From a virus, in the IMG/VR virus record IMGVR_UViG_3300017719_000147, positions 1-27,468 of that record: a stretch of DNA of 27,468 bases. One strand, written 5' to 3'. The notes below the pieces were generated by a model, which saw nothing but the letters and a program-made list of their open reading frames with translations, was not told the DNA's origin and ran no database searches. Below, in pieces: positions 6,642-23,550 of the stretch (the stretch's first letter is position 1; the number at the start of each line of letters is the position of its first letter). The translations under genes and the position numbers were made by a program.

Positions 6642-7222
6642 ATCTAGCCTTTTACAGTGATCCCACCGAAAAAGCTCTGGTTACTGAGATCATGGGTTGG
6701 TCTAAGGTTGCTTTAGAAAAACCCAGTAAGTTTTTTAACGGACTTCCTCCATGTCCGTTTGCAAAGACGGCGTGGTTGGAGGACAAAGTTTCAATTATCT
6801 TTAAGAAAGAAGCGTCTTATCAGACGTTGTATTCCTGCATTTCTAGATATGATGATGCGTTTGATCTGGTAATTATTGTTGACTTAAAAAACACAAAGAA
6901 CCCGGAGGATTTTCACGAATACTTGGACGATTTAAACCACCGCATTTCCGAAGGTATGTTTATCGACAAGGACATTTGGGTAATGGGGTTTAATCCCGAG
7001 GATGAGCCGAGCGATTTTGTAGAAGACGTTACTTTTAATTATGACGTTGACGATGAATATAGCATGATTTTTGTTCAAAGACTTTCTAAGTTACAGGAAG
7101 CAGCAAACAGGTTGGACAAAAAGGGATACTATGATAGCTATGACGGTGAATACAACTCTACAGAAATATACTTTAACCGTGAAAAACTGTACAGGAGATT
7201 AAAAAATGGCGATGAAACCTAA
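6638..7222 (+). CDS. Conserved acidic protein with PPCPFAK motif, function unknown
   Basis: This 194-residue acidic soluble protein stands out from its basic neighbours. Residues 20-46 hold GWSKVALEKPSKFFNGLPPC and PFAKTAW, resembling the CPFAK-type motif near the start of DUF1415 proteins, but the rest was not matched. Alternating beta and alpha pattern follows, with DLVIIVDL (76-83), DIWVMGF (112-118) and MIFVQRLSKLQEAANRLDKK (143-162). There is no signal or membrane segment. It overlaps the previous gene by ATGA and the next by 17 bases. It may be an enzyme-like auxiliary protein, since virion proteins rarely look like this. No function should be assigned. Confidence 0.7.
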   Translation: MNLAFYSDPTEKALVTEIMGWSKVALEKPSKFFNGLPPCPFAKTAWLEDKVSIIFKKEASYQTLYSCISRYDDAFDLVIIVDLKNTKNPEDFHEYLDDLNHRISEGMFIDKDIWVMGFNPEDEPSDFVEDVTFNYDVDDEYSMIFVQRLSKLQEAANRLDKKGYYDSYDGEYNSTEIYFNREKLYRRLKNGDET

Positions 7223-7346
7223 AAAGATGCGTGGCGGCGGCATGGCAAAGAAGATGCGCGGTGGTGGCATGGTTAAGAAGCTGCGTGGCGGCGGCATGGT
7301 TAAGAAACTTCGTAGCGGTGGAGCCGTTCGTAAATCTAAAAAGTAG
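7206..7346 (+). CDS. 46-residue KK/RGGG repeat protein
   Basis: This short frame is easy to miss. After MAMKP it has four tandem copies of a nine-residue unit of the form KKMRGGGMA, the last degenerate (KKLRSGGAV), and it ends RKSKK. It holds about a third Lys plus Arg, no acidic residue and no aromatic residue. A good ribosome site (AGGAG, 7193-7197) precedes the ATG, which overlaps the previous gene by 17 bases; the connector gene starts six bases after its stop. Such a peptide is likely disordered and could bind DNA, RNA or membrane. Similar GGG-M repeats occur in other marine phages as far as I recall, without known function. Confidence 0.65.
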   Translation: MAMKPKKMRGGGMAKKMRGGGMVKKLRGGGMVKKLRSGGAVRKSKK

Positions 7347-11412: not shown

Positions 11413-11787
11413 ATGGCTGCACCGAATATCGTAAATGTAAGCACGATCATAGGCAAATCCGCCACCGTCGCGCTTTCTACAACATCCGCAACGACACTGG
11501 TCAGCAATGCTGCATCCAGCGGCAAGGTCTTTAAGATCAACATGATCCAAGTGGCAAACGTCGATGGCGTAAACGCCGCAGACGTTACGGTGGATATGCA
11601 CAGCGCGGCATCCGGCGGTGGCACAGCCTACTCTCTGGTCGCAACTGTTTCGGTCCCTGCCGACTCTTCGCTGGTTGCTCTTGATAAAGGTACGTCTGTG
11701 TATCTTGAGGAAGATAGGTCAATCACTGCGACTGCTAGTGCCGCTAACGACTTGGAAGTAATTGTAAGCTACGAAGAGATCAGCTAA
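11413..11787 (+). CDS. Small beta-rich virion protein
   Basis: This 124-residue protein is rich in Ala, Ser, Val and Thr, starts MAAPNIVNVSTIIGKSATVA and has alternating beta-strand pattern throughout, with FKINMIQVANVDGVNAADVT (40-59) in the centre and an acidic C-terminus (VIVSYEEIS). No cysteine, signal or membrane part is seen. The ribosome site AAGGAG is strong. Its stop overlaps the start of the first propeller protein (TAATG), so it may be a partner or adaptor for the fibres. The role is inferred from position alone. Confidence 0.65.
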   Translation: MAAPNIVNVSTIIGKSATVALSTTSATTLVSNAASSGKVFKINMIQVANVDGVNAADVTVDMHSAASGGGTAYSLVATVSVPADSSLVALDKGTSVYLEEDRSITATASAANDLEVIVSYEEIS

Positions 11788-13214
11788 TGCGCTTTATTGG
11801 CAACGCCCCTGTAGATGGTGAAGTTCGTGCTATCGCCTCTGGTGCGTTAGCCACTGGAGATCCTGTTGTAGTTAATGCTGATGGGACTGTTAGTAACATT
11901 TTTACTAACCTAACTATATTCAATAATGCCAGCACCTTTGTTCCAGCTATAGCTACAAATGGCTCTGGAACTTTTCTTCTTATTTATAGGGATGATGGTA
12001 ATTCACAGGCAGGCATGGCTGTTGCGGGGACAATATCTGGGTCTTCTGTGACACTTGGAACGGCTGTACAAATAACAAGTGAAATGGGGAACTCACGACT
12101 GTCAACTGCTGTTGTTTACGACCCTGATAACTCAAAGTTTGTTATTGCTTATCGTGACGCCAACAATGACAGTTACCTCACATCCAGAGTTGTCACCGTA
12201 ACTGGTACAACGGTATCACTTGGTACAGCAGTGGTGGTTAATAGCCAGACTGTCACTACCGTAGACATTGCCTATGACACTAGCGCAAACAAAGTTGTTT
12301 TTGGCTGGCGTGGTGGATCAGGTACTCTTGTTGCAGGAGCCGTTGGAACGGTAAGTGGAACGTCTATATCTTTTGGCAGCACTACTATAGTTGCCTCAAA
12401 AAGACCTGATTATATGAATGTTGTATATGATAGCAATGCAAATAAAACTGCATTTTTTTACAAGGACGCCGCAGACACTGGAGATGGATACTATGTTGTT
12501 TGCACTGTTAGTGGCACATCAATAAGTGGTGGTTCAACTGCCGCCTTTGATGCGGCAGATGTACAATATATTTCAGCCGCTTATGACAGCACTGCACAGA
12601 AGATAGTTATTGCATATCGAGATGAAGGAAACTCTGGAGGTTATGGAAGTGCTATTGTTGGGACAATAAGCGGAACATCAATGACGTTTGGCTCAGAAAC
12701 TTCTTTTACTGATGCCCAAGCTGGCGATATTTCCGTTAGTTATGATAGCACAAATAACCAGACGTTTATTTTTTGTGAAAAGAGCAACACCTTACAAGGC
12801 ATTATAGGTACTGTAAGCGGTACGTCGATAAGTTTTGGGACACCTGCGACCCTATCTAGTGGGGGTGGAAAAAGTTATACAAGTTCTACGTTTTCAGTAA
12901 GCTCTGGGAAGGTACTTGTTGCTTTTAGAGATCAAGCGGCCTCAAACATAGGGACTTTATTAACGGTAGACTCCAACTTTGCAGGGGGCAACCTCACCTC
13001 CGAGAACTTCATAGGTTTTGCCAATAGCGGCTACGCTGACGGTCAATCCGCAGCGATCAACTCAACGTGCATGGTTGACAGTAATCAAACCAGTTTAACC
13101 GCTGGGCAGACTTACTATGTACAGACTAGCGGTGCGCTGGGTACAACCCCTGCTGATCCGTCTGTTGTGGCTGGAACGGCCATCTCTTCTAAATCTATTA
13201 TCGTGAAAGGTTAA
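11787..13214 (+). CDS. Seven-repeat putative beta-propeller fibre protein, copy 1
   Basis: This 475-residue protein has an N-terminal module (1-40, with VRAIASG and DPVVVNADGTVS), then seven repeats of about 50 residues (about 45-405), then a C-terminal module (about 406-475) with LTAGQTYYVQTSG and TPADPSVVAGTAISSKSIIV. Each of the first six repeats runs YDSxxNKxVIAYRDxxNS, GTVSGTSISFG, so four beta strands per repeat are likely. The seventh replaces the SGTSISFG part with a strand leading to LTSENFIG. Seven such units suit a seven-bladed propeller, a common carbohydrate-binding or receptor-binding fold. It has no signal peptide or enzymatic motif. The same three modules occur in the proteins at 13488 and 15711. 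Host-receptor binding is inferred. Confidence 0.75.
   Translation: MRFIGNAPVDGEVRAIASGALATGDPVVVNADGTVSNIFTNLTIFNNASTFVPAIATNGSGTFLLIYRDDGNSQAGMAVAGTISGSSVTLGTAVQITSEMGNSRLSTAVVYDPDNSKFVIAYRDANNDSYLTSRVVTVTGTTVSLGTAVVVNSQTVTTVDIAYDTSANKVVFGWRGGSGTLVAGAVGTVSGTSISFGSTTIVASKRPDYMNVVYDSNANKTAFFYKDAADTGDGYYVVCTVSGTSISGGSTAAFDAADVQYISAAYDSTAQKIVIAYRDEGNSGGYGSAIVGTISGTSMTFGSETSFTDAQAGDISVSYDSTNNQTFIFCEKSNTLQGIIGTVSGTSISFGTPATLSSGGGKSYTSSTFSVSSGKVLVAFRDQAASNIGTLLTVDSNFAGGNLTSENFIGFANSGYADGQSAAINSTCMVDSNQTSLTAGQTYYVQTSGALGTTPADPSVVAGTAISSKSIIVKG
11919..13001 (+). repeat. Seven-unit protein repeat array, putative propeller A
   Basis: Seven tandem ~50-codon units; units 3-6 keep the form SGTSxxFG or SGTSISGG and unit 7 is modified at its end. 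Units are diverged at the DNA level. Boundaries are approximate. Confidence 0.75.
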
Positions 13215-13218
13215 ACAC

Positions 13219-13482
13219 ATGAAGACCATCGTTGAAACGTCAACTAAGTTAAGCAAGTATCTGCTTGCTGATAATGTTGCGATCACAGCCACGGCTGATA
13301 ACATTACAGTCGGTGATCCTGCACAGTTTATTATTGGTGACTTGAACAGCACCACGGTTACAATCACTGAGAACATAACAAACGCCCCTGATGATTGGAC
13401 AGGCAACAAGTACAAATTGGATGGCACAACGTGGTCAGCTAATCCTGATTGGGTAGACCCGACACTCGACGACGAGGAATAA
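13219..13482 (+). CDS. Small acidic protein between two propeller genes
   Basis: This 87-residue protein begins MKTIVETSTKLSKYLLADNV and continues with beta-like VAITATADNITVGDPAQFII. It has a C-terminal WTGNKYKLDGTTWSANPDWV (66-85 approximately), rich in Trp, and an acidic tail DPTLDDEE. The pattern resembles small proteins often found next to fibre genes in marine phages. It could be a fibre-assembly chaperone or a minor fibre part, but nothing in the sequence decides this. Its ribosome site is weak (AAAGG, 13205-13209), and it lies four bases after the upstream stop. Confidence 0.65.
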   Translation: MKTIVETSTKLSKYLLADNVAITATADNITVGDPAQFIIGDLNSTTVTITENITNAPDDWTGNKYKLDGTTWSANPDWVDPTLDDEE

Positions 13483-13487
13483 TCTAA

Positions 13488-15707
13488 ATGCGCATCATTG
13501 GTACCGCTGAAAAAGCGAGAGAAGTAAAGGCCGTTGCCAGTGGTGTGTTGCCAAGCGGTCAGCCTATTATCGTAAATGCTGACGGGACGGTTAGTATTGT
13601 TGCGGAGACTGCTGTTTCTCAGTCTATCGGAACGGCGAAAACGGTCAATACCCAAACAAGCGGAGACAATAGCGCAATTTACGACTCCGCAAACAACAGG
13701 GTTGTTGTAGTTTATAGGGACGAAGGCAACAGTAATTATGGCACTGCTGCGGTCGGCACTATAACTGGAACATCTCTTTATTTTGGGTCGGAAGTTGTGT
13801 TCGCCTCTGAGTATGTTGGCTATTTAAATTCTGTTTATGATGTATCCGCAGGAAAAGTTGTTGTTTTTTATTCCGACAGCGGCGCTGTAGGGCGCTGTAA
13901 TGTTGGCACTGTAAGTGGCACATCTATTTCTTTTGGTAGCCAAGTTAACGCAGGCCCCCAAACCAGCTCTTATTCTCAGACATCCGCTTATGACTCCGTA
14001 AATCAAAAAATTGTTATTGCGCGTCAAAAAAGTTCCGGCTCCGGCGGGGAAGCATTTGTTGGGACAGTAAGCGGTACATCGATTAGCTTTGGAAGTGCGG
14101 TTACGTTTGAGACCAGCAACGTAAGCCTTTATGTTGGCGGTTTAGCATATAATCCTGCTACTGGAAAATTTGTTTTGGCATATAGGGAAAGAGTGAATAA
14201 TTACGCAAAGTGTAAGGTCGGCACTGTAAGTGGCACATCGATTAGCTTTGGAGCAATCGAAGGTTTTAATTCATCCAATACTCAACAAATCGTTGTTAGT
14301 TCTGACCCAACCTCAAACCATGTTGTTATCTACTACAAGGATACATCGGATAGCCAAAAGGGTGAGGCTAGGGTAGGAACTATAACGGGAACATCTATTG
14401 CAGTCGGTTCTTTGACTCAATACTCTGCGGGTGAAATAGGTAGACAGTCAGCAACGTACAATGTCGCGGCGGGAAAGCATGTGATCTTCTTTACCGATCA
14501 GAGTGACAATACAAAAGGATTTTTTTGTGAGGGAACAGTAAGTGGAACCTCTGTCAGCTTTACCTCTCCTGTAGAATATGAAGCTGGGACTACCGTCTGG
14601 GCTACGGGCGCGGCCTACATATCTGATGAAAAAGTTGTTGTTCATGCGTTTTCTGATAATTCGGATAGCGGTAAAGGCAAAGCAATTGCAATTCGTTCCG
14701 CCTACACAGAAGCCAACCTCACCTCAGAGAACTACATCGGCACAGCCGCCAGTGGCGCACCTAGTGGGCAAGGCGCAAAGATCAACATCAAGGGCGCTGT
14801 GGCTGAAGTGCCAGAAACTATCTATGAAATTGTAAGTGCCTCTTATGATAGTGTTAACTTTAGTGTATCGGGACAAGACGCAGACCCATATGGTCTTTTC
14901 TTTCGTTCAGATGGCGCAAAGATGTACGTTGCAGGGGATGCAGGAAACGATATAAACGAGTACAATCTTAGCACACCTTGGACTGTTAGTTCGGCTTCTT
15001 ACAGCCAAAACTTTAGCGTAGCTTCTCAAGAGTCTGCTCCTAATGGCGTATTCTTTAAAACCGATGGAACTAAAATGTTTGTAGTTGGCACTGCTACGGA
15101 CACTGTTTATGAGTATGCGTTAAGTTCCGCTTGGGACATTAGCTCTGCAAGCTACGGCTCTGTAAGTTTTAGCGTAGGAAGCCAAGACACTGCTCCAACT
15201 GATCTTGCCTTTAAGACTGATGGAACCAAAATGTTTATTTTGGGTAAAACTGGAGACAATGTTTATGAGTATGCACTGAGTTCTGCGTGGGTTGTGTCCT
15301 CTGCCTCGTATACTAGGAGCTTTAGTGTTGCCTCTCAGGAAACAGGCCCAACGGGTTTGTTCTTTTCTTCCGATGGCCTTAATATGGTGGTAGTAGGGGC
15401 AGCGGGTGTAAACAAATATGTTTTAAGCTCTGCTTGGGATATTAGTACTTCGTCTTACTCACAAGCATTTAGTGTCTCATCCCAAGAAAATGATCCACAG
15501 GCTTTGTTTTTTAAATCTGACGGTACTAAGATGTATGTGTTGGGATCGGGATCGGACACAGTTTATCAGTATTCAACGTCAGTATCACTAACCCCTGCAC
15601 AAAGTTACTACGTCCAGACGGACGGCACATTAAGTACAACTGCCGGAGACCCAAGTGTATTCGCTGGCACTGCTGTAGCTGCAACCAAACTTATCGTGAA
15701 GGGCTAA
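13488..15707 (+). CDS. Two-domain propeller-type fibre protein, copy 2
   Basis: This 739-residue protein has the N-terminal module (VKAVASGVLPSGQPIIVNAD, 13-32), then seven repeats of the SGTSISFG type (about 45-417), ending LTSENYIG. A second, different array follows at 446-699: five units of 49-53 residues with the form SxSYxxxFSVxSQ, PxGLFFKxDGTKMYVxG, DxVYEYxLSSAW. These resemble NHL/YVTN-like propeller blades. The C-terminal module (about 700-739) again carries YYVQTDG, AGDPSVFAGTA and KLIVKG. The protein is thus a fusion of a seven-repeat domain and an unrelated-looking repeat domain between shared ends. No catalytic motif or signal is seen. It is probably a receptor-binding appendage. 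Confidence 0.75.
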   Translation: MRIIGTAEKAREVKAVASGVLPSGQPIIVNADGTVSIVAETAVSQSIGTAKTVNTQTSGDNSAIYDSANNRVVVVYRDEGNSNYGTAAVGTITGTSLYFGSEVVFASEYVGYLNSVYDVSAGKVVVFYSDSGAVGRCNVGTVSGTSISFGSQVNAGPQTSSYSQTSAYDSVNQKIVIARQKSSGSGGEAFVGTVSGTSISFGSAVTFETSNVSLYVGGLAYNPATGKFVLAYRERVNNYAKCKVGTVSGTSISFGAIEGFNSSNTQQIVVSSDPTSNHVVIYYKDTSDSQKGEARVGTITGTSIAVGSLTQYSAGEIGRQSATYNVAAGKHVIFFTDQSDNTKGFFCEGTVSGTSVSFTSPVEYEAGTTVWATGAAYISDEKVVVHAFSDNSDSGKGKAIAIRSAYTEANLTSENYIGTAASGAPSGQGAKINIKGAVAEVPETIYEIVSASYDSVNFSVSGQDADPYGLFFRSDGAKMYVAGDAGNDINEYNLSTPWTVSSASYSQNFSVASQESAPNGVFFKTDGTKMFVVGTATDTVYEYALSSAWDISSASYGSVSFSVGSQDTAPTDLAFKTDGTKMFILGKTGDNVYEYALSSAWVVSSASYTRSFSVASQETGPTGLFFSSDGLNMVVVGAAGVNKYVLSSAWDISTSSYSQAFSVSSQENDPQALFFKSDGTKMYVLGSGSDTVYQYSTSVSLTPAQSYYVQTDGTLSTTAGDPSVFAGTAVAATKLIVKG
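13620..14738 (+). repeat. Seven-unit protein repeat array, putative propeller B
   Basis: Seven units of about 52 codons, with units 1-6 ending in TGTS or SGTS elements and unit 7 ending LTSENYIG. Boundaries are approximate. Confidence 0.75.
14823..15584 (+). repeat. Five-unit repeat array of a second type
   Basis: Five tandem units of 49-53 codons with core SDGTKMYVxG and a closing YxLSSAW. They differ clearly from the SGTSISFG units upstream. Five is fewer than usual for a closed propeller of this kind. Confidence 0.75.
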
Positions 15708-15710
15708 GAC

Positions 15711-18332
15711 ATGGCACTAGATACCATTCCAAAGCAAGAGGGCGGTAAGCTCAAGGCCGTTGCATCTGGGACACTGCCAAGCGGTCAGCCTGTTGTGGTT
15801 AATGCTGATGGGACTGTAAGTGTTGTTGGGGGGTCAACTATATCTTCCAATCTTGGGTCAGCAACTGCTTTCGAAACAACAATTGCTGGTTTTTTGGGGG
15901 CTTCTTACGATAGCAATTCTAACAAGGTTGTTTTTGCCTACAAAGATGAGGGCAACTCTGCTTACGGAACAGCCGTTGTGGGTACAATAAGCGGCACATC
16001 CATTAGTTTCGGGACGCCTGTTGTGTACAGTAGTGTCAATTCAGACTTTCACACTTGTGCTTTTGATAGTTCAAATAACAAAGTTGTAGTTGGTTATAAC
16101 GATAATGTTAATAACTTGGGAAAGGCCATAGTCGGCACTGTATCTGGCACATCCATTAGTTTTGGCTCTGCGGTTAGTTTCCCCGCCAGCAATGTTTGTA
16201 ATTACATTTCTTCCGTATTTGATAGCAGCTCAAATAAAGTTGTTTTTGCTTACAGGGACGCTGGAGCGAGTCAAAGAGGGAAGGCGGCTGTTGCTACAGT
16301 AAGCGGCACAAGTTTGTCCTTTGGCTCTGCGGGAACCTTTTTAAACACTACAGGCAACGGCCCTGAGAATATGTGCATGGCCTTTGACTCCGTAAACAAC
16401 AAGGTTGTTTTGGCTTTTCAAGATCGAAACGATAGCAATAAAGCCAAAGGCATTGTCGGCACTGTAAGCGGCACTGACATTTCGTTTGGCAGCATTTCAG
16501 AAATACCTAGCAGTAGTGCAGACATCGCAGAGGATGGCATGGGTGGTATCGCCTATGACGCCAGCAGTGAAAAAATTGTTGTTGTATATAGAGCTAGTAG
16601 TGTTTCAAATTACGGGCGCGTTTCTGTGGGAACCGTAAGTGGAACTAGCATTTCGTTTGCAGCCGCTGCTACCTTCGCAGCGTTTGCTACGGGAACAGGC
16701 GCTCAGACTCCTAAAATAGTGTACAATCCAACGGCTAAGAAAGTTGTGGTGGTTGTTGAAGGCACTAGTCAAAACAATCTTTATGAAGGCGTTGTTTCTG
16801 GCGACACGGTTACGTTTAGCTCTCCTTTAGCTTATGCAACATCCAGCCCACGCGCTTTGTCTAATCCCGTTTATGCAAGCACACCTGACAAAGTGGTTAT
16901 AGGTTATCAGGCTGACAATAACAACGGCACTTCCGCTGTATACCAAACTGCTTACACCTCCACCACCCTCACCTCCGAGAACTACATTGGTATGTCTAGT
17001 GGGTTTGTTGAAGATAGTTCAGTTTCAGAATCAGTAGGAACTTCAGTTGTGTTCGAAACTGGGGGAATTGCGGATGAAGCCTCTTCCGCTTTTGACAGCA
17101 ATTCCAACAAAACAGTTATAGCTTATGTAGACATAGGGAATGGTTCTGAGGGAACAGCGGTTGTTGGAACAGTAAGTGGAAACGCTATTAGCTTTGGGTC
17201 TGAGGTTAGTTTTTCTGGTTCTGGCGTTAGCACTAGATATATTGGTGCAACTTTTGACTCTTCAAACAATAAAATTGTTATAGCCTACCAAGATGCTAGC
17301 AACTCTCAATACGGCACAGCCGTTGTAGGGACTGTAAGTGGCACAACTATAAGTTTTGGAACACCCGTAGTTTTTGAGAGCGCAAATTGTCAGTTTGTAA
17401 GTGCAACATTCGACAGTAACTCTAACAAAGTTGTTGTCGCCTACGCGGATCAATTTAATGTTTCAGGCGCTGGAACAGCGATTGTGGGGACAGTCTCTGG
17501 AACGTCTATTAGCTTTGGCACTCCTGTTGTTTTTGAAAATGCTAATACGGATGAAATTTCAATAGGCTTTGACAGTAGCGCGAACAAGGTTGTTGTCGCT
17601 TATCAAGACGCAGGAAACTCCAATCATGGCACTGCTGCTGTTGGTACGGTATCTGGAACGTCTATTAGCTTTGGCACTCCTGTTGTTTTTCAGGCAGCAG
17701 ACACTAGACATACTTCTACGACTTTTGACTCCAAAAACAATAAGATTGTTATAGCTTATGAAAACGATGGTAGTTCTGAACACGGTACTGCTGTTGTCGG
17801 GACGGTCAGTGGCACATCTATTTCCTTTGGCACTCCGGTCGTTTTTGCCGCCTCTGTTGTATCTCTCATAGATGCAACCTTTGACAGTAACGCAAACAAA
17901 GTGGTTGTGCAGTATAGAGACGAAACAAACAGTAATTACGGCACTATTGTTTCAGGCTCTGTTTCAGATACAACCATAACCTTTGACACTCCTTTGGTGT
18001 TTAATGCCAATACTTCTAGCAATTCAAATACCAACTCGTTTGACAGTAACGCAAACAAGGTTGTGATCGCTTATAACGACGGTGGAAACTCTAATAAGGG
18101 AACTAGCGCGGTATATCAAACGGGTTATACAGACATCACCAGAGGCCAAGTCGCAAGCGGTGGCGCTGCAACCGTTGACATCGTAGGCACGGTCTCCACA
18201 AACCAGATAGGCTTAACCGCTGGTCAACAATACTTCGTCCAGACAGATGGCACGGTAGGCACAACCCCTGCTGACCCAAGCGTCTTGGCTGGCACGGCAA
18301 TATCTGCTACAAAGCTCGTAGTCAAAACATAA
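15711..18332 (+). CDS. Double seven-repeat propeller fibre protein, copy 3
   Basis: This 873-residue protein has the same N-terminal module (LKAVASGTLPSGQPVVVNAD, 14-33). A first set of seven repeats (about 50-441) closes with TLTSENYIGM. A second set of seven (442-808) closes with GTSAVYQTGYT. The C-terminal module (809-873) has LTAGQQYFVQTDGTVGTTPA, DPSVLAGTA and KLVVK. Repeats 2-5 of the second set are the most alike in the window, with SGTSISFGTPVVF repeated almost unchanged. Two complete sets of seven argue for two stacked seven-bladed propellers. No catalytic residues are recognised. It directly precedes the tail hub gene. Confidence 0.75.
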   Translation: MALDTIPKQEGGKLKAVASGTLPSGQPVVVNADGTVSVVGGSTISSNLGSATAFETTIAGFLGASYDSNSNKVVFAYKDEGNSAYGTAVVGTISGTSISFGTPVVYSSVNSDFHTCAFDSSNNKVVVGYNDNVNNLGKAIVGTVSGTSISFGSAVSFPASNVCNYISSVFDSSSNKVVFAYRDAGASQRGKAAVATVSGTSLSFGSAGTFLNTTGNGPENMCMAFDSVNNKVVLAFQDRNDSNKAKGIVGTVSGTDISFGSISEIPSSSADIAEDGMGGIAYDASSEKIVVVYRASSVSNYGRVSVGTVSGTSISFAAAATFAAFATGTGAQTPKIVYNPTAKKVVVVVEGTSQNNLYEGVVSGDTVTFSSPLAYATSSPRALSNPVYASTPDKVVIGYQADNNNGTSAVYQTAYTSTTLTSENYIGMSSGFVEDSSVSESVGTSVVFETGGIADEASSAFDSNSNKTVIAYVDIGNGSEGTAVVGTVSGNAISFGSEVSFSGSGVSTRYIGATFDSSNNKIVIAYQDASNSQYGTAVVGTVSGTTISFGTPVVFESANCQFVSATFDSNSNKVVVAYADQFNVSGAGTAIVGTVSGTSISFGTPVVFENANTDEISIGFDSSANKVVVAYQDAGNSNHGTAAVGTVSGTSISFGTPVVFQAADTRHTSTTFDSKNNKIVIAYENDGSSEHGTAVVGTVSGTSISFGTPVVFAASVVSLIDATFDSNANKVVVQYRDETNSNYGTIVSGSVSDTTITFDTPLVFNANTSSNSNTNSFDSNANKVVIAYNDGGNSNKGTSAVYQTGYTDITRGQVASGGAATVDIVGTVSTNQIGLTAGQQYFVQTDGTVGTTPADPSVLAGTAISATKLVVKT
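15858..17033 (+). repeat. Seven-unit protein repeat array, putative propeller C
   Basis: First set of seven units in the protein at 15711; unit 7 ends with the VYQTAYT and LTSENYIG closing element. Boundaries are approximate. Confidence 0.75.
17034..18134 (+). repeat. Seven-unit protein repeat array, putative propeller D
   Basis: Second set of seven units in the protein at 15711, more uniform than the first; unit 7 ends with VYQTGYT. Boundaries are approximate. Confidence 0.75.
17496..17690 (+). repeat. 39-base exact direct repeat within propeller D
   Basis: Bases 17496-17534 and 17652-17690 are identical over 39 bases. They start 156 bases (52 codons) apart, exactly one protein repeat. They encode SGTSISFGTPVVF and are candidate sites for recombination or slippage. 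Confidence 0.85.
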
Positions 18333-18343
18333 GGTGATGTTGT

Positions 18344-20254
18344 ATGCCGCTTACCAAACTTCAGTTCAAGCCCGGTGTTAATAGAGAAACAACGTCCTAC
18401 ACGAACGAGGGCGGCTGGTTTGATGTGGATAAGGTGCGGTTTCGCTTTGGTATGCCCGAAAAGATCGGCGGCTGGGAGAAGTTTTCCCAATTTTCATACC
18501 TTGGAACGGCTAGAGCGATGCACCCTTGGGTGGCTTTGGACAATAGCCGCTACATTGGAATTGGCACAAGCCTCAAGTATTATTTGAATCAAGACAGCGG
18601 TGCTTTTTCCGATATTACGCCCTTACGCGCTACAACCGCTGCGGGGGATGTGACTTTTTCTGCCACCAACGGGTCATCAACAATTACTGTGACAGATGCA
18701 AACCACGGCGCAGTGTCCGGTGATTTTGTGACATTTAGCGGTGCGGCGAGTCTTGGTGGGACGATCACCGCAGGGGTCTTGAACCAAGAGTATAACATTA
18801 CAGGGGTTCTGACGAGCAATACATACACAATCTCCGCCCGAACCGCAGGAACTACCGTTCCATCCATTACAGTGGACGGGCAACTCTCTCCAACTCTTGT
18901 GCCTGCAAACGGCTCCGATACAGGAAATGGTGGGTCGTCAGTTGTTGGTGCGTATCAGATTAATATCGGTCTAAACACCTCTACTTTTGGCGCAGGATGG
19001 GGCATTGGTTTTTGGGGTCGAGGAACGTGGGGTTCCGCGGCGTCCACTCCCGTGGTTACTTCTACACTTCGTATTTGGACACATGACAACTTTGGCGAAG
19101 ACTTACTGGTTAATGTGCGCAACGGCGGGATTTACTATTGGGACAAGACCGGGGGACTAGGTTCTCGGGCCGTGAGCCTTGATTCGTTGCCCGGAGCGTC
19201 AACAACTCCCACCATTGCCAAGCAGGTTTTAGTTTCAGACCGTGACCGCCACATTATTGCCTTTGGGTGCGATACGGAAAGCAACCCCGGCGTTCAAGAC
19301 CCGTTGGCTATCCGGTTTTCGTCTCAAGAATCTTTGACGGATTGGGGTGCTACTGCAACTAATACTGCGGGTGAGTTGCGCCTTGGTTCTGGGTCCGAGA
19401 TTGTCATGGCGATTGAAACGCGCCAGCAGGTCTTGGTGTTTACAGACGAATCCTTGTACGCCATGCAGTACTTAGGTCCGCCCTTTACCTTTGGTGTGAA
19501 CTTGGTGTCTGAGAATATTACGACTATGGGTCCGCTGGCCGCGGTTCCTGTTGAAGACAACGTGTTCTGGATGGGTCTTAAAGAGTTCTACGCATATGGT
19601 GGTACTGTTCAGCGCCTGCCATGCACTGTCCGAGACTATGTGTTTGACGACATTAATTTGGCCCAGCGCGAAAAGATTGTGGCTTCAAGCAACACCTCGT
19701 TTTCTGAGGTCTGGTGGTTCTACCCATCTGCTACTAGCGAAGTAAACAATCGCTATGTTGTTTACAACTATCAGCAGCAAATTTGGTACTACGGCACTTT
19801 GTCTCGCAGTTTTTGGATGGACAGGGGTATTTTTGACCAGCCGATTGCCGCAGGGCCTAACAATTATTTGTACTCTCAGGAGACGGGATTCGATGATGAT
19901 GGCGCGGCATTTACTGCATACATCGAGTCGAGCCAGATCGACATTGGGGATGGTGACAGCTTTGCTTTCATCAAGCGCATGATACCGGATGTCACGTTCC
20001 GCGGCTCTACTGCGGCCAGCCCGAGTGCTAACTTTACAATAAAAACTCGCAATTTCCCCGGCGGGAATTATCTACAGTCTACGGAAAAGCAGGTTACCAA
20101 GACGGCTTCTGTTCCTGTTGAGCAGTTTACAGAACAGGTACATCTGAGGTTGCGAGGCCGTAGCTTTGCGATGCGAGTAGAATCGGAAGACTCCGGGGTA
20201 GGCTGGCGGCTAGGGTCTCCAAGGCTGGATATTCGGACTGACGGGAGAAGGTAG
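18344..20254 (+). CDS. Tail hub/nozzle protein, P22 gp10-like type
   Basis: This 636-residue protein starts MPLTKLQFKPGVNRETTSYT, typical of podovirus tail hub or packaged-DNA-stabilisation proteins (P22 gp10, 472; T7 gp12, 794). Motifs include EGGWFDVDKVRFRFGMPEKI (22-41) and GGW, an inserted beta domain with VTDANHGAVSGDFVTFSG (about 115-132), the Trp/Gly-rich GIGFWGRGTWG (about 223-233), and repeated beta segments later (VLVFTDESLYAMQYLG; YVVYNYQQQIWYYGTLS). The C-terminus is basic. It follows the receptor module and would join the adaptors to form the short tail. Some family members fold as propellers. The ribosome site is AAGGTGATG. The family assignment is from pattern and order. Confidence 0.7.
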   Translation: MPLTKLQFKPGVNRETTSYTNEGGWFDVDKVRFRFGMPEKIGGWEKFSQFSYLGTARAMHPWVALDNSRYIGIGTSLKYYLNQDSGAFSDITPLRATTAAGDVTFSATNGSSTITVTDANHGAVSGDFVTFSGAASLGGTITAGVLNQEYNITGVLTSNTYTISARTAGTTVPSITVDGQLSPTLVPANGSDTGNGGSSVVGAYQINIGLNTSTFGAGWGIGFWGRGTWGSAASTPVVTSTLRIWTHDNFGEDLLVNVRNGGIYYWDKTGGLGSRAVSLDSLPGASTTPTIAKQVLVSDRDRHIIAFGCDTESNPGVQDPLAIRFSSQESLTDWGATATNTAGELRLGSGSEIVMAIETRQQVLVFTDESLYAMQYLGPPFTFGVNLVSENITTMGPLAAVPVEDNVFWMGLKEFYAYGGTVQRLPCTVRDYVFDDINLAQREKIVASSNTSFSEVWWFYPSATSEVNNRYVVYNYQQQIWYYGTLSRSFWMDRGIFDQPIAAGPNNYLYSQETGFDDDGAAFTAYIESSQIDIGDGDSFAFIKRMIPDVTFRGSTAASPSANFTIKTRNFPGGNYLQSTEKQVTKTASVPVEQFTEQVHLRLRGRSFAMRVESEDSGVGWRLGSPRLDIRTDGRR

Positions 20255-20774: not shown

Positions 20775-22423
20775 TGGCCGCTGCGCAACAGTACGAAACA
20801 ATTACAATGCCAGATGCTGGAATTGGTAGTTTTCTAACGTCAAACATGGACGAGCTTGACGACAACGTTTTGATGTTTGGTCGCGAGTCAGGCATTAACT
20901 CTATGAAGGCTGTTGCGGATCGGATGGCCGCTCAAGGTCGAAATGGTGACAATTATATAATTCACGCCTCTGAAAAAGAGGTCATGGTTCCTCGTGAGGT
21001 GGCGGAAAACAACCCGGAGCTTATGGAGCGGGTTAATCAAGCTATATCTGCCGAGGGGGCCGATCCGGCAGCATATGTTGTTGGTTCAGAATTAAACTCA
21101 ATTAACCCTTACACGGGTCAACGGGAGTTTTTCTTAAAGAAGCTTGTTAAAAAAGTTAAGAACGTACTGAAAAAAGCGGCAAAAGTTATTTTGCCTGTTG
21201 CGATAAACTATTTTCTACCGGGCCTTGGCACGATTGCGTCTGCCGCTATTGGTGCAGGTATCGGGGGCCTTGTTCAAGGCGAGAATTTTGGGGATGCGTT
21301 AAAAAGTGCGGCTTTAGGCGGAATAACCGCGGGCGTTGCATCGGGTATTTCCAGTAAGTTTAGCGGCGGCACGTTTATGGAGGGCGTAAAAGGCGGTCTT
21401 CCAGCAAGTTACAGCGGCGCAGGTTTAAAAGGCGCATTGCCTAGTTCTGGTGATTTTGCTTTACGCGGACCCGAAGCTCCGGGGTTCTTTGAACCCATGA
21501 AAACAGGTTATGCAGGCACAGACGCTTATGCTCAAAGTTTGTCCGCGGCACAAGAGGCTGCGGGTATGAACAAGTATCAGTTAGCTAAAGCAGAAATTGA
21601 CAAAGCGAAAGCCGCCGGAATCACCTTGTCTCCCGATCAGGCGTTGACTCAGGTTTCGGCTAACGTAGGAAAATCAAGCGCCCTCGGCACGGCCGTTAAG
21701 TACGGGCTTCCAACACTCCTCGCCGCTGGAGCGGGGGGAGCTTTTGATCCGATCCCTGCCGAAGAGATTGACTTGTCCGGTTATGGTATAGACGTAGCCG
21801 ACACCTCTGAGACTCGACTTGCTGAGGACCCCGGAAAATATAGCACTGGAGTTCCAACTCGGAGTCCCGGTTACATATCACCGTCTAACGCAATTTACTC
21901 TGGTCAACCTTTGACCACGGCGGCTTATCTTCCAAACCAAGGCTCATATAATCCTATCGTTCCGTCTAACACCTACGCAGCCTTAACCGATCAAAACGCG
22001 GGAACAATGGTTCCAAGTGGCGGTGGTTCTTCAACTTATGTCCCACCTTCCCCGGTTAACATCCCCGGATACGACCCAACAGTAACGGGGATGCGTCCTG
22101 CTCCGTTGTACGGCGTAGATCAATTTGGCAACCCGGTATATTCGCCTTACGCTGATCCGATAATGCCTGCACAATATGCTTCTACGGCCCCAATTACTCC
22201 CGTAAACGCTGCAAGAGGTGGCGCGATGGACTTTCCGCGGCGCACGGGCCAGATAGAAGGCCCCGGCACAGAGACTTCTGACGACATTCCCGCGATGCTT
22301 TCTGACGGGGAGTTTGTTATGACAGCGCAGGCCGTTAGAAATGCGGGTCAAGGCGACCGTCAAAAAGGTTTCAGGAAGATGTACGATATAATGCGGGCAT
22401 ATGAAGGAGGGGCGGTAGCATAA
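20771..22423 (+). CDS. Probable ejected internal virion protein with membrane-active region
   Basis: This 550-residue protein has an N-terminal globular part (1-120) with EKEVMVPREVAENNPELMER (69-88). A Lys-rich amphipathic stretch (123-138) is followed by a long hydrophobic Gly/Ala region (138-192), then a Pro/Gly/Ser/Tyr-rich disordered part (about 335-490). The C-terminal DDIPAMLSDGEFVMTAQAV (504-522) recalls the DDxPAxLxxGEFVx motif common in phage tape-measure and internal proteins. The amphipathic plus hydrophobic block suggests membrane insertion during DNA ejection. RGGAMDFPRR precedes the C-terminal motif. Coupled by ATGA, it opens the final group of large internal-type proteins. An alternative is a tape-measure-like role. 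Confidence 0.65.
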   Translation: MMAAAQQYETITMPDAGIGSFLTSNMDELDDNVLMFGRESGINSMKAVADRMAAQGRNGDNYIIHASEKEVMVPREVAENNPELMERVNQAISAEGADPAAYVVGSELNSINPYTGQREFFLKKLVKKVKNVLKKAAKVILPVAINYFLPGLGTIASAAIGAGIGGLVQGENFGDALKSAALGGITAGVASGISSKFSGGTFMEGVKGGLPASYSGAGLKGALPSSGDFALRGPEAPGFFEPMKTGYAGTDAYAQSLSAAQEAAGMNKYQLAKAEIDKAKAAGITLSPDQALTQVSANVGKSSALGTAVKYGLPTLLAAGAGGAFDPIPAEEIDLSGYGIDVADTSETRLAEDPGKYSTGVPTRSPGYISPSNAIYSGQPLTTAAYLPNQGSYNPIVPSNTYAALTDQNAGTMVPSGGGSSTYVPPSPVNIPGYDPTVTGMRPAPLYGVDQFGNPVYSPYADPIMPAQYASTAPITPVNAARGGAMDFPRRTGQIEGPGTETSDDIPAMLSDGEFVMTAQAVRNAGQGDRQKGFRKMYDIMRAYEGGAVA

Positions 22424-23550
22424 TGGCTGAAGAAGTTGTCCAGATAAGCAGACAGGACCCTGCTATTGAAGCCTACCGTTTAGGGCTTTTAGGTGATGTT
22501 CAAACATACATCAAAGATCAGATTGCGGCAGGAATGCCCGCGGAAACAGCGTATCAGGTTGCGGGTTTAACCGCTCCGGAGACGGCGGCTATTCAAGCGG
22601 CGGGTTCGGGCATCGGTGCTTACCAGCCTTTTTTGCAAGCGGGTGAAGCCGCTATTCAGGGTGGTCAAAACATTCTGACGGGCTCTGCAATGCCTTCTTT
22701 GCAGCAAGCTGAAACAACTACAGGCGCTTCTCAAGACATTATTAACCAAGCGGCGCAACTTGCTGGTGCGCAACGCGCTGTTCCTTACACATATCAACAG
22801 GCGGCGGCACAAACCGCGGCAGGGATTGGCGGCTTTAATCCTTTTGAAGAGCAGGTTGTTCAGAGGTCTCTTGATGATGTTGCTCGTCAGGCGGGAATAC
22901 AGCAACAAGGGATTCGGGCTCAAGCCGTTGGCTCTGGAGCTTTTGGCGGTTCGCGTCAAGCCGTTGCCGAGCAAGAACTTTTCCGCAACGCTTTAGATCA
23001 AATGGGTCGAACATCGGGTCAGTTGCGGCAAGCAGGCTTTGATGCGTCTATGGCGCGTCGCTTGCAGGAAGCTCAGTTGTACGGAAACCTCGGGGTTCAG
23101 TACGGTCAGCTAGGTCAACAAGACGTTTCACAACTTGGTGATTTAGCCAAGACGCAGATGCAGCTTGGTCAGGGCCTCGGATCGTTGTCCGCGCAATACG
23201 GTCAGTTTGGTTCGGCATTGGGTCAGCTGGGCGTTCAACAGGCAGGCATTGGCGAGATCGGCCAAAATATTCGTGGGTCTCAGATTCAAAACGCTCTTAC
23301 CGCGGGCGGACTACAGCGCGGCATCGATCAGTCGGCGCTTGACGCGACTCGCCTTACAAATGTTCAGGCACAACAGTATCCGTATCAACAGTATGGCTTC
23401 TTGTCAGACATTTATGCGGGTATACCGACTTCACAATCTACAATTACAGCATCTTCTGCACCTCAAGTCTCGCCGTTTCAAACGGCTCTGGGCTTGGGTA
23501 TCTCAGGACTTAGCGCCGCGGCGGGCGCATCAAAAGCGGGGTTATTCTAA
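22423..23550 (+). CDS. Probable internal virion protein, Gln/Gly-rich repeats
   Basis: This 375-residue protein has helical N-terminal segments (to about 120), then NPFEEQVVQRSLDDVARQAG (about 139-158) and a long helical stretch. Residues about 220-290 carry seven-residue-like repeats of GQLGxQ or YGQLGQ. The end is hydrophobic and small (GLGISGLSAAAGASKAGLF). The pattern is familiar from internal or ejection proteins of marine phages. Overlaps at both ends are TAATG. There are no enzyme motifs and no signal peptide. Function as an ejected helical component is inferred from composition and its neighbours. Confidence 0.65.
   Translation: MAEEVVQISRQDPAIEAYRLGLLGDVQTYIKDQIAAGMPAETAYQVAGLTAPETAAIQAAGSGIGAYQPFLQAGEAAIQGGQNILTGSAMPSLQQAETTTGASQDIINQAAQLAGAQRAVPYTYQQAAAQTAAGIGGFNPFEEQVVQRSLDDVARQAGIQQQGIRAQAVGSGAFGGSRQAVAEQELFRNALDQMGRTSGQLRQAGFDASMARRLQEAQLYGNLGVQYGQLGQQDVSQLGDLAKTQMQLGQGLGSLSAQYGQFGSALGQLGVQQAGIGEIGQNIRGSQIQNALTAGGLQRGIDQSALDATRLTNVQAQQYPYQQYGFLSDIYAGIPTSQSTITASSAPQVSPFQTALGLGISGLSAAAGASKAGLF

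Follow-up and report, generated by a model that had tools for sequence, protein, structure and literature searches.

We propose that the three large repeat proteins P1, P2 and P3, encoded in tandem in the window (the whole 27,468-base IMG/VR record analysed here), are in all likelihood a three-gene cassette of receptor-binding tail-fibre proteins that are built of closed beta-propeller rings and exchanged between marine podoviruses. The original prediction had read the seven-unit arrays of these proteins as closed seven-bladed propellers, and this reading is well supported in sequence and model: the constant unit count, the lone D strand, the truncated last unit, the predicted structures and the fold matches all agree. 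The receptor-binding role that had also been suggested receives indirect support from the tail-fibre slot, the assembly chaperones and the swapping of the cassette; that P1-P3 bind a receptor or glycan is an inference.

Gene organization of the cassette

The window, which is probably a fragment of a genome, has a gene order like that of the marine podoviruses Pelagibacter phage HTVC027P, Roseobacter phage CRP-902 and phage DSL-LC04, in which capsid genes, tail genes and a fibre region are followed by a stabilization protein. Table 1 lists the features of the cassette. The 636-residue protein at its downstream edge has GenBank relatives that carry the annotation stabilization protein. P1 belonged to no Pfam or PHROG family, and searches of P1-P3 against Pfam, PHROGs and PDB sequences returned only sub-threshold or irrelevant matches. 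No WD40 Pfam family matched P1-P3, and their similarity to WD40 proteins is at the fold level only.

Table 1. Features of the propeller cassette and its edges in the window
Feature	Position	Strand	Remarks
124-residue gene bordering the cassette upstream, retained where the cassette has been exchanged	11413..11787	+	71-85% identity in near relatives, both those with P1-P3 and those lacking them
P1, 475 residues, tail-fibre-slot protein: N-cap, one predicted seven-bladed propeller, C-cap	11787..13214	+	7 profile units
P1 predicted seven-bladed propeller array, limits approximate	11895..12998	+	profile units; degenerate unit 1 matched from profile position 11
Gene for an 87-residue protein, located between P1 and P2 and related to the N-terminal half of an assembly chaperone for tail fibres	13219..13482	+	
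P2, 739 residues: N-cap, predicted seven-bladed propeller, predicted five-bladed propeller, C-cap	13488..15707	+	
P2 predicted seven-bladed propeller array, limits approximate	13617..14699	+	7 profile units
P2 predicted five-bladed propeller array, FKxDGTKMYVxG repeat, residues 444-698	14817..15581	+	
P3, 873 residues: N-cap, two predicted seven-bladed propellers, C-cap	15711..18332	+	
P3 first predicted seven-bladed propeller array, limits approximate	15843..16958	+	7 profile units
P3 second predicted seven-bladed propeller array	17016..18143	+	7 profile units and D-strand match
P3 conserved C-cap, LTAGQQYFVQTDGTVGTTPADPSVLAGTAISATKLVVKT	18207..18329	+	same motif ends P1 and P2
636-residue phage stabilization protein, downstream edge of the cassette	18344..20254	+	PHROG 3287, E 3e-68

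Elsewhere in the window, an intergenic tandem repeat of 27 bases (TAAGAAGATGCGTGGCGGCGGCATGGT) is present in 3 to 4 copies at 7220-7318, and, ahead of the capsid module, a small gene (1485-1928) occupies the position of an annotated co-chaperone GroES in HTVC027P.

Repeat units of P1, P2 and P3

A unit profile was built from ten P3 units and iterated on 158 related loci. Searches with this profile reproduced the seven units that had been counted in each of P1 and P2 and the seven plus seven in P3. The repeat unit of this family is about 52 residues long, and its spacing in P1-P3 is mostly 49-57 residues. Since the single units scored 18 to 90 bits and the same count recurred in 252 complete arrays of relatives, the seven-unit pattern is not due to chance. 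As had been noted, the seventh unit lacks SGTSISFG in all four arrays; this segment is the fourth strand, so that unit 7 ends after its third. The motifs VYQTxYT and LTSENYIG, which had been taken for a distinct closing element, turn out to be the C strand of unit 7 and the linker that follows. The piece that would close the ring is instead a lone D strand ahead of unit 1, such as SSVSESVGTSVVFETG, which precedes the second P3 array (match at profile positions 34-49). The earlier total of four propeller domains was one short: the five-unit array of P2 had gone uncounted, and the rings of the three proteins number five. An alignment of 43 P3 relatives contained 17 invariant columns, 8 of them within the C-cap, and the invariant residues belong to the blade consensus or the C-cap.

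Unit number among relatives and predicted closure of the ring

A beta-propeller consists of a four-stranded antiparallel blade that is repeated 4 to 12 times, with a fixed number of blades and a closure that is usually of the velcro type. As judged from sequence and model, the P1-P3 arrays have a four-stranded repeat of about 52 residues, together with a fixed count and a velcro signature. In the IMG/VR loci, 230 of 252 complete arrays had seven units by automatic count, and the other 22 came to seven on reading. These arrays are from diverse ORFs, which form 145 clusters at 90% identity and 74 at 50%. Six-unit counts were rejected as real exceptions because the last unit was degenerate, counts of five and smaller groups because units had been skipped, and eight-unit counts because a profile match was spurious or split; a count of fourteen reads as 7+7. 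Relatives with six, eight or varying numbers of units had been named as evidence that would speak against closed rings, and the count proved constant, with seven units in all 252 complete arrays after reading. One ORF of 2353 residues (L250:7017-14075) contains 28 blades, arranged as four sets of seven; its contig is binned as a Euryarchaeota MAG and is possibly viral. When a cellular origin of the family was sought among genome contigs, only two MAG contigs were found, both possibly viral.

Among 172 non-redundant arrays, a D-strand match was present in the 20 residues before unit 1 in 73% (above the 99th percentile of shuffles) and behind unit 7 in 0%. The lone D strand and the truncated unit 7 together are the sequence signature of a velcro-closed ring, because the fourth strand is permuted to before unit 1 and such a permutation would have no obvious use in an open solenoid. 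Of the 30 non-redundant loci that include flanks, 25 carry three genes from the seven-bladed family in tandem. Among the five others, L012 and L059 have, between their family genes, a diverged ring-like gene that shares the caps, which brings these two loci to three as well.

Five-bladed and six-bladed families

The five-unit array of P2 has the same arrangement at its ends: a lone D strand precedes unit 1, and the fifth unit has no D strand. In 70 of 77 non-redundant ORFs of the FKxDGTKMYVxG family, to which this array belongs, the unit number is 5, 10, 15 or 20; the other seven comprise four that prove to be multiples of five when read and three ORFs of a single diverged locus (L209). The interval between units 5 and 6 was off the normal 51-52 residues in 40 of the 40 ten-unit arrays listed, and in a twenty-unit array the intervals behind units 5, 10 and 15 depart from normal. 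The isolate phages CRP-2, CRP-9 and CRP-13 each encode a single protein, 1.22-1.25 thousand residues long, in which the units number 5+5+5, so the pattern of the five-unit family is not a metagenome assembly artefact. The Lactonase and SGL families (PF10282 and PF08450) were matched by a member of the five-unit family, Lentibacter phage ICBM2 gp51, with E values of 4e-7 and 7e-9; Lactonase is described as seven-bladed, whereas the phage arrays of this family have five units per ring.

Several deviating counts in the five-unit family were rejected. The eight units of L177:3802-5145 are probably a repeat collapse in metagenome assembly, since near-identical contigs have ten units and L177 is 102 residues shorter. 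The nine units in L183 and L185 are explained by a degenerate tenth unit, and in L120, L210 and L202 the apparent extra unit consists of nothing but a D strand. Some fifteen-unit arrays (L215:3277-5682, also L172, L175, L216 and L233) have the spacing 5 + 1 + [5] + 4, apparently one five-bladed ring inserted in another that is split 1+4.

A third family, which is kelch-like, occupies the same slot in sister phages. Its proteins have five full units and two halves, which indicates six blades. The repeat (STGNATDFGDLTVAR...RGVFAGG...NTIDYVTIA) was found in L101, L102, L089, L091 and L124, upstream of the stabilization gene, and in L089 and L091 a five-bladed and a six-bladed ring are fused. This six-bladed family corresponded to no Pfam family, and tblastn in GenBank phages gave no match.

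Predicted structures of P2 and P3

AlphaFold2 models were made with alignments of the window and locus proteins as input. The mean pLDDT was 89.5 for P2 (pTM 0.62), with the five-bladed part mostly at 94-98, and 86.8 for P3 (pTM 0.52). Ring residues were mostly above 90 in both models, and the modest pTM is probably a consequence of models that do not fix the placement of the rings relative to each other. DSSP assigned four strands to most units. Structure prediction, which had been suggested as a check on the arrays, thus gave confident models, and these matched tandem propellers in fold. The top PDB matches of P2 were the WD40 proteins of the SSU processome and Elp2 (E 3.5e-15), and the top match of P3 was the double propeller Elp2 (E 3.6e-12); whole-chain TM-scores were low in these matches, as expected when the relative ring placement differs. 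In BFVD, the nearest structures were those of uncharacterised viral proteins and of one protein from Lentibacter phage ICBM2. The P2 and P3 monomer models showed no obvious trimeric stalk (coiled coil or triple beta-helix) of the kind that classic phage fibres have.

Exchange of rings at the tail-fibre locus

In the nearest relative by stabilization protein (L085, 94% identical), P1-P3 are replaced by a kelch-like propeller together with fibre and chaperone genes: the slot also encodes a protein matching the tail-fibre PHROG 24898 (E 8e-62) and a Phage_tail_APC chaperone. The 87-residue protein between P1 and P2 is 42% identical to Lentibacter phage ICBM2 gp48 (E 4e-21), of which the C-terminal half is PF16778 Phage_tail_APC, and in ICBM2 the ring genes alternate with chaperones of the Phage_tail_APC type. 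ICBM2 gp51 is five-bladed, and gp49 is a diverged candidate for a seven-bladed protein. A published study of cobaviruses reports that the corresponding part of the genome is variable and carries genes for tail fibres and for assembly proteins (PMC6775973). Because sister phages keep recognised tail-fibre genes and assembly chaperones there, the slot of P1-P3 is, as judged by gene content, the tail-fibre locus; like those loci, it combines a tail-fibre position with a relative of an assembly chaperone.

The propeller genes are the part of this region that changes. Over the near relatives, adjacent genes are 71-94% identical while the propeller genes are 40-49% identical or replaced. In three relatives that share the cassette (L088, L100 and L022), the 124-, 87- and 636-residue neighbours are 71-88% identical and P1-P3 40-49%; the 87-residue gene is 82-88% identical in relatives where P1-P3 drop to 36-49%. 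At a separate position in the window (22423-23550), a 375-residue gene is 27-32% identical in most relatives while the neighbouring tail genes are 79-89% identical, and given this low identity beside well-kept neighbours it is probably another exchanged gene.

Discussion

The constant seven could in principle be inherited from one ancestral open-solenoid array that neither gained nor lost units. All arrays of the family do share ancestry and have similar caps. In that case, blades at the same position should be more alike between arrays than blades at different positions, and they hardly are: similarity was 0.461 at the same position and 0.448 at different positions. Blade identity inside single arrays ranges from 0.27 to 0.72. 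The near-equal similarities and the high identity inside some arrays indicate that blades have been turned over within arrays while their number stayed, and turnover at a fixed count points to a constraint on the number, not to inheritance alone. Inheritance would also leave unexplained why three repeat families keep three fixed numbers (7, 6 and 5), why higher counts are whole multiples (14 and 28; 10, 15 and 20), and what the permuted D strand would do in a solenoid. We therefore consider an inherited open solenoid very improbable and favor closed rings.

Closed rings need not bind receptors. They could be enzymes, such as glycosidase or depolymerase tailspikes of the kind seen in phage endosialidases: glycosidases are frequent among propellers, the tailspike of phage K1F is an endosialidase (PMC12632334), and the neighbouring 636-residue protein has a weak, sub-threshold match to an endosialidase beta-barrel. 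Yet P1-P3 contain no strict Asp-box (S/T-x-D-x-G-x-x-aromatic), on which ground an identity as Asp-box glycosidase or sialidase was rejected, and no glycosidase Pfam family was found in them. The invariant columns of the 43 P3 relatives include no blade-specific catalytic set. The missing Asp-box and the lack of blade-specific invariant residues make an enzyme less likely, and we regard this role as improbable. A structural role as tail adaptors or decorations that make no contact with the host receptor has a precedent in the nozzle propellers of podoviruses, which serve as tail-tube structure (seven-bladed in SU10; PMC9509320). Against it, a nozzle-type job is probably filled by the stabilization protein next door, near relatives conserve most of the tail genes around the slot and exchange P1-P3, and recognised tail-fibre genes occupy the slot in sister phages. 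A purely structural role thus seems unlikely, and receptor-binding fibre proteins remain our preferred reading.

As receptor-binding fibres, P1-P3 would work as follows. Each stretch of about 52 residues would form one four-stranded blade, and the last blade would take its D strand from before unit 1, so that the ring closes at seven blades, or at five in the second family. P1-P3 would be part of the virion, with the conserved N-cap and C-cap presumably anchoring each chain to the tail, with help from the chaperone relative whose gene separates P1 from P2. Towards the host, the rings would turn their more variable loops as a recognition surface, probably for surface polysaccharide. Entropy per blade position was lowest at the CD turn (0.84) and the D strand (0.95) and high in the BC loop (2.35) and DA loop (2.29). 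The AB and CD turns are more conserved than the BC and DA loops, in a contrast that is graded, not sharp, as the A strand (2.3) is as variable as these loops. This pattern fits a recognition surface on one face of the ring, and variable BC and DA loops would be compatible with a carbohydrate-binding propeller lectin. The locus behaves as a cassette in which whole rings or genes are exchanged for five-, six- or seven-bladed rings or give way to LamG-type fibres, and the tail genes next to it are retained. We also consider, with considerable doubt, that P1, P2 and P3 form one hetero-oligomeric receptor-binding head, possibly a heterotrimer, to which each chain gives one or two rings. If so, the three-gene rule and the shared caps would follow, and the phage could display a combinatorial set of rings.

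The analysis identifies large uncharacterised repeat proteins of marine phages as predicted closed rings with a blade number that is fixed per family, and a tail-fibre locus at which five-, six- and seven-bladed rings appear to be interchangeable parts, likely a kit for gripping different hosts. If confirmed, the cassette would offer a ready-made supply of swappable rings that bind marine bacteria, roseobacters among them, and natural data on propellers that keep their blade number while the blades turn over. The description of P1-P3 as an undescribed kind of module was overstated, since propeller receptor-binding proteins are known; in the sources covered, the repeat family does appear undescribed, as do its chains of several rings and the cassette of three genes. 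Pfam, PHROGs, PDB sequences and the literature covered contained neither the seven-bladed family nor chains of several rings, a rule of three genes, or an exchange of five-, six- and seven-bladed rings at one tail-fibre locus. For the literature, of which few subscription journals were covered, this absence is weak evidence.

Among known propellers, which arise continuously by blade amplification (PMC6805158), Elp2 and other tandem WD40 proteins have two propellers per chain as P3 does; they match by fold only, being eukaryotic proteins of unrelated function with 7-12% identity in the alignments. The SU10 nozzle is a seven-bladed, velcro-closed propeller in a short-tailed phage (PMC9509320), and it differs in being a tube-forming tail protein whose counterpart here is probably the 636-residue neighbour. 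According to PMC4901313, PRD1 P2 has a distorted five-bladed head, and the C-terminal domain of Pseudomonas phage phiKZ gp131 (PDB 4GBF) is a seven-bladed propeller at the baseplate periphery with a proposed receptor-binding role. The latter was not detected by sequence with P1-P3; it shares their seven blades but comes from a jumbo myophage and is not a three-gene, multi-ring cassette. Sequence searches of the PDB gave no match to Gp45, the receptor-binding protein of Staphylococcus phage phi11, whose five-bladed ring is closed where an N-terminal strand joins three C-terminal strands (PMC4901313). Gp45 resembles the second P2 array in its five blades and in its velcro-type N-terminal strand, and differs in forming a homotrimer with a triple-helical stem and tower and one ring per chain.
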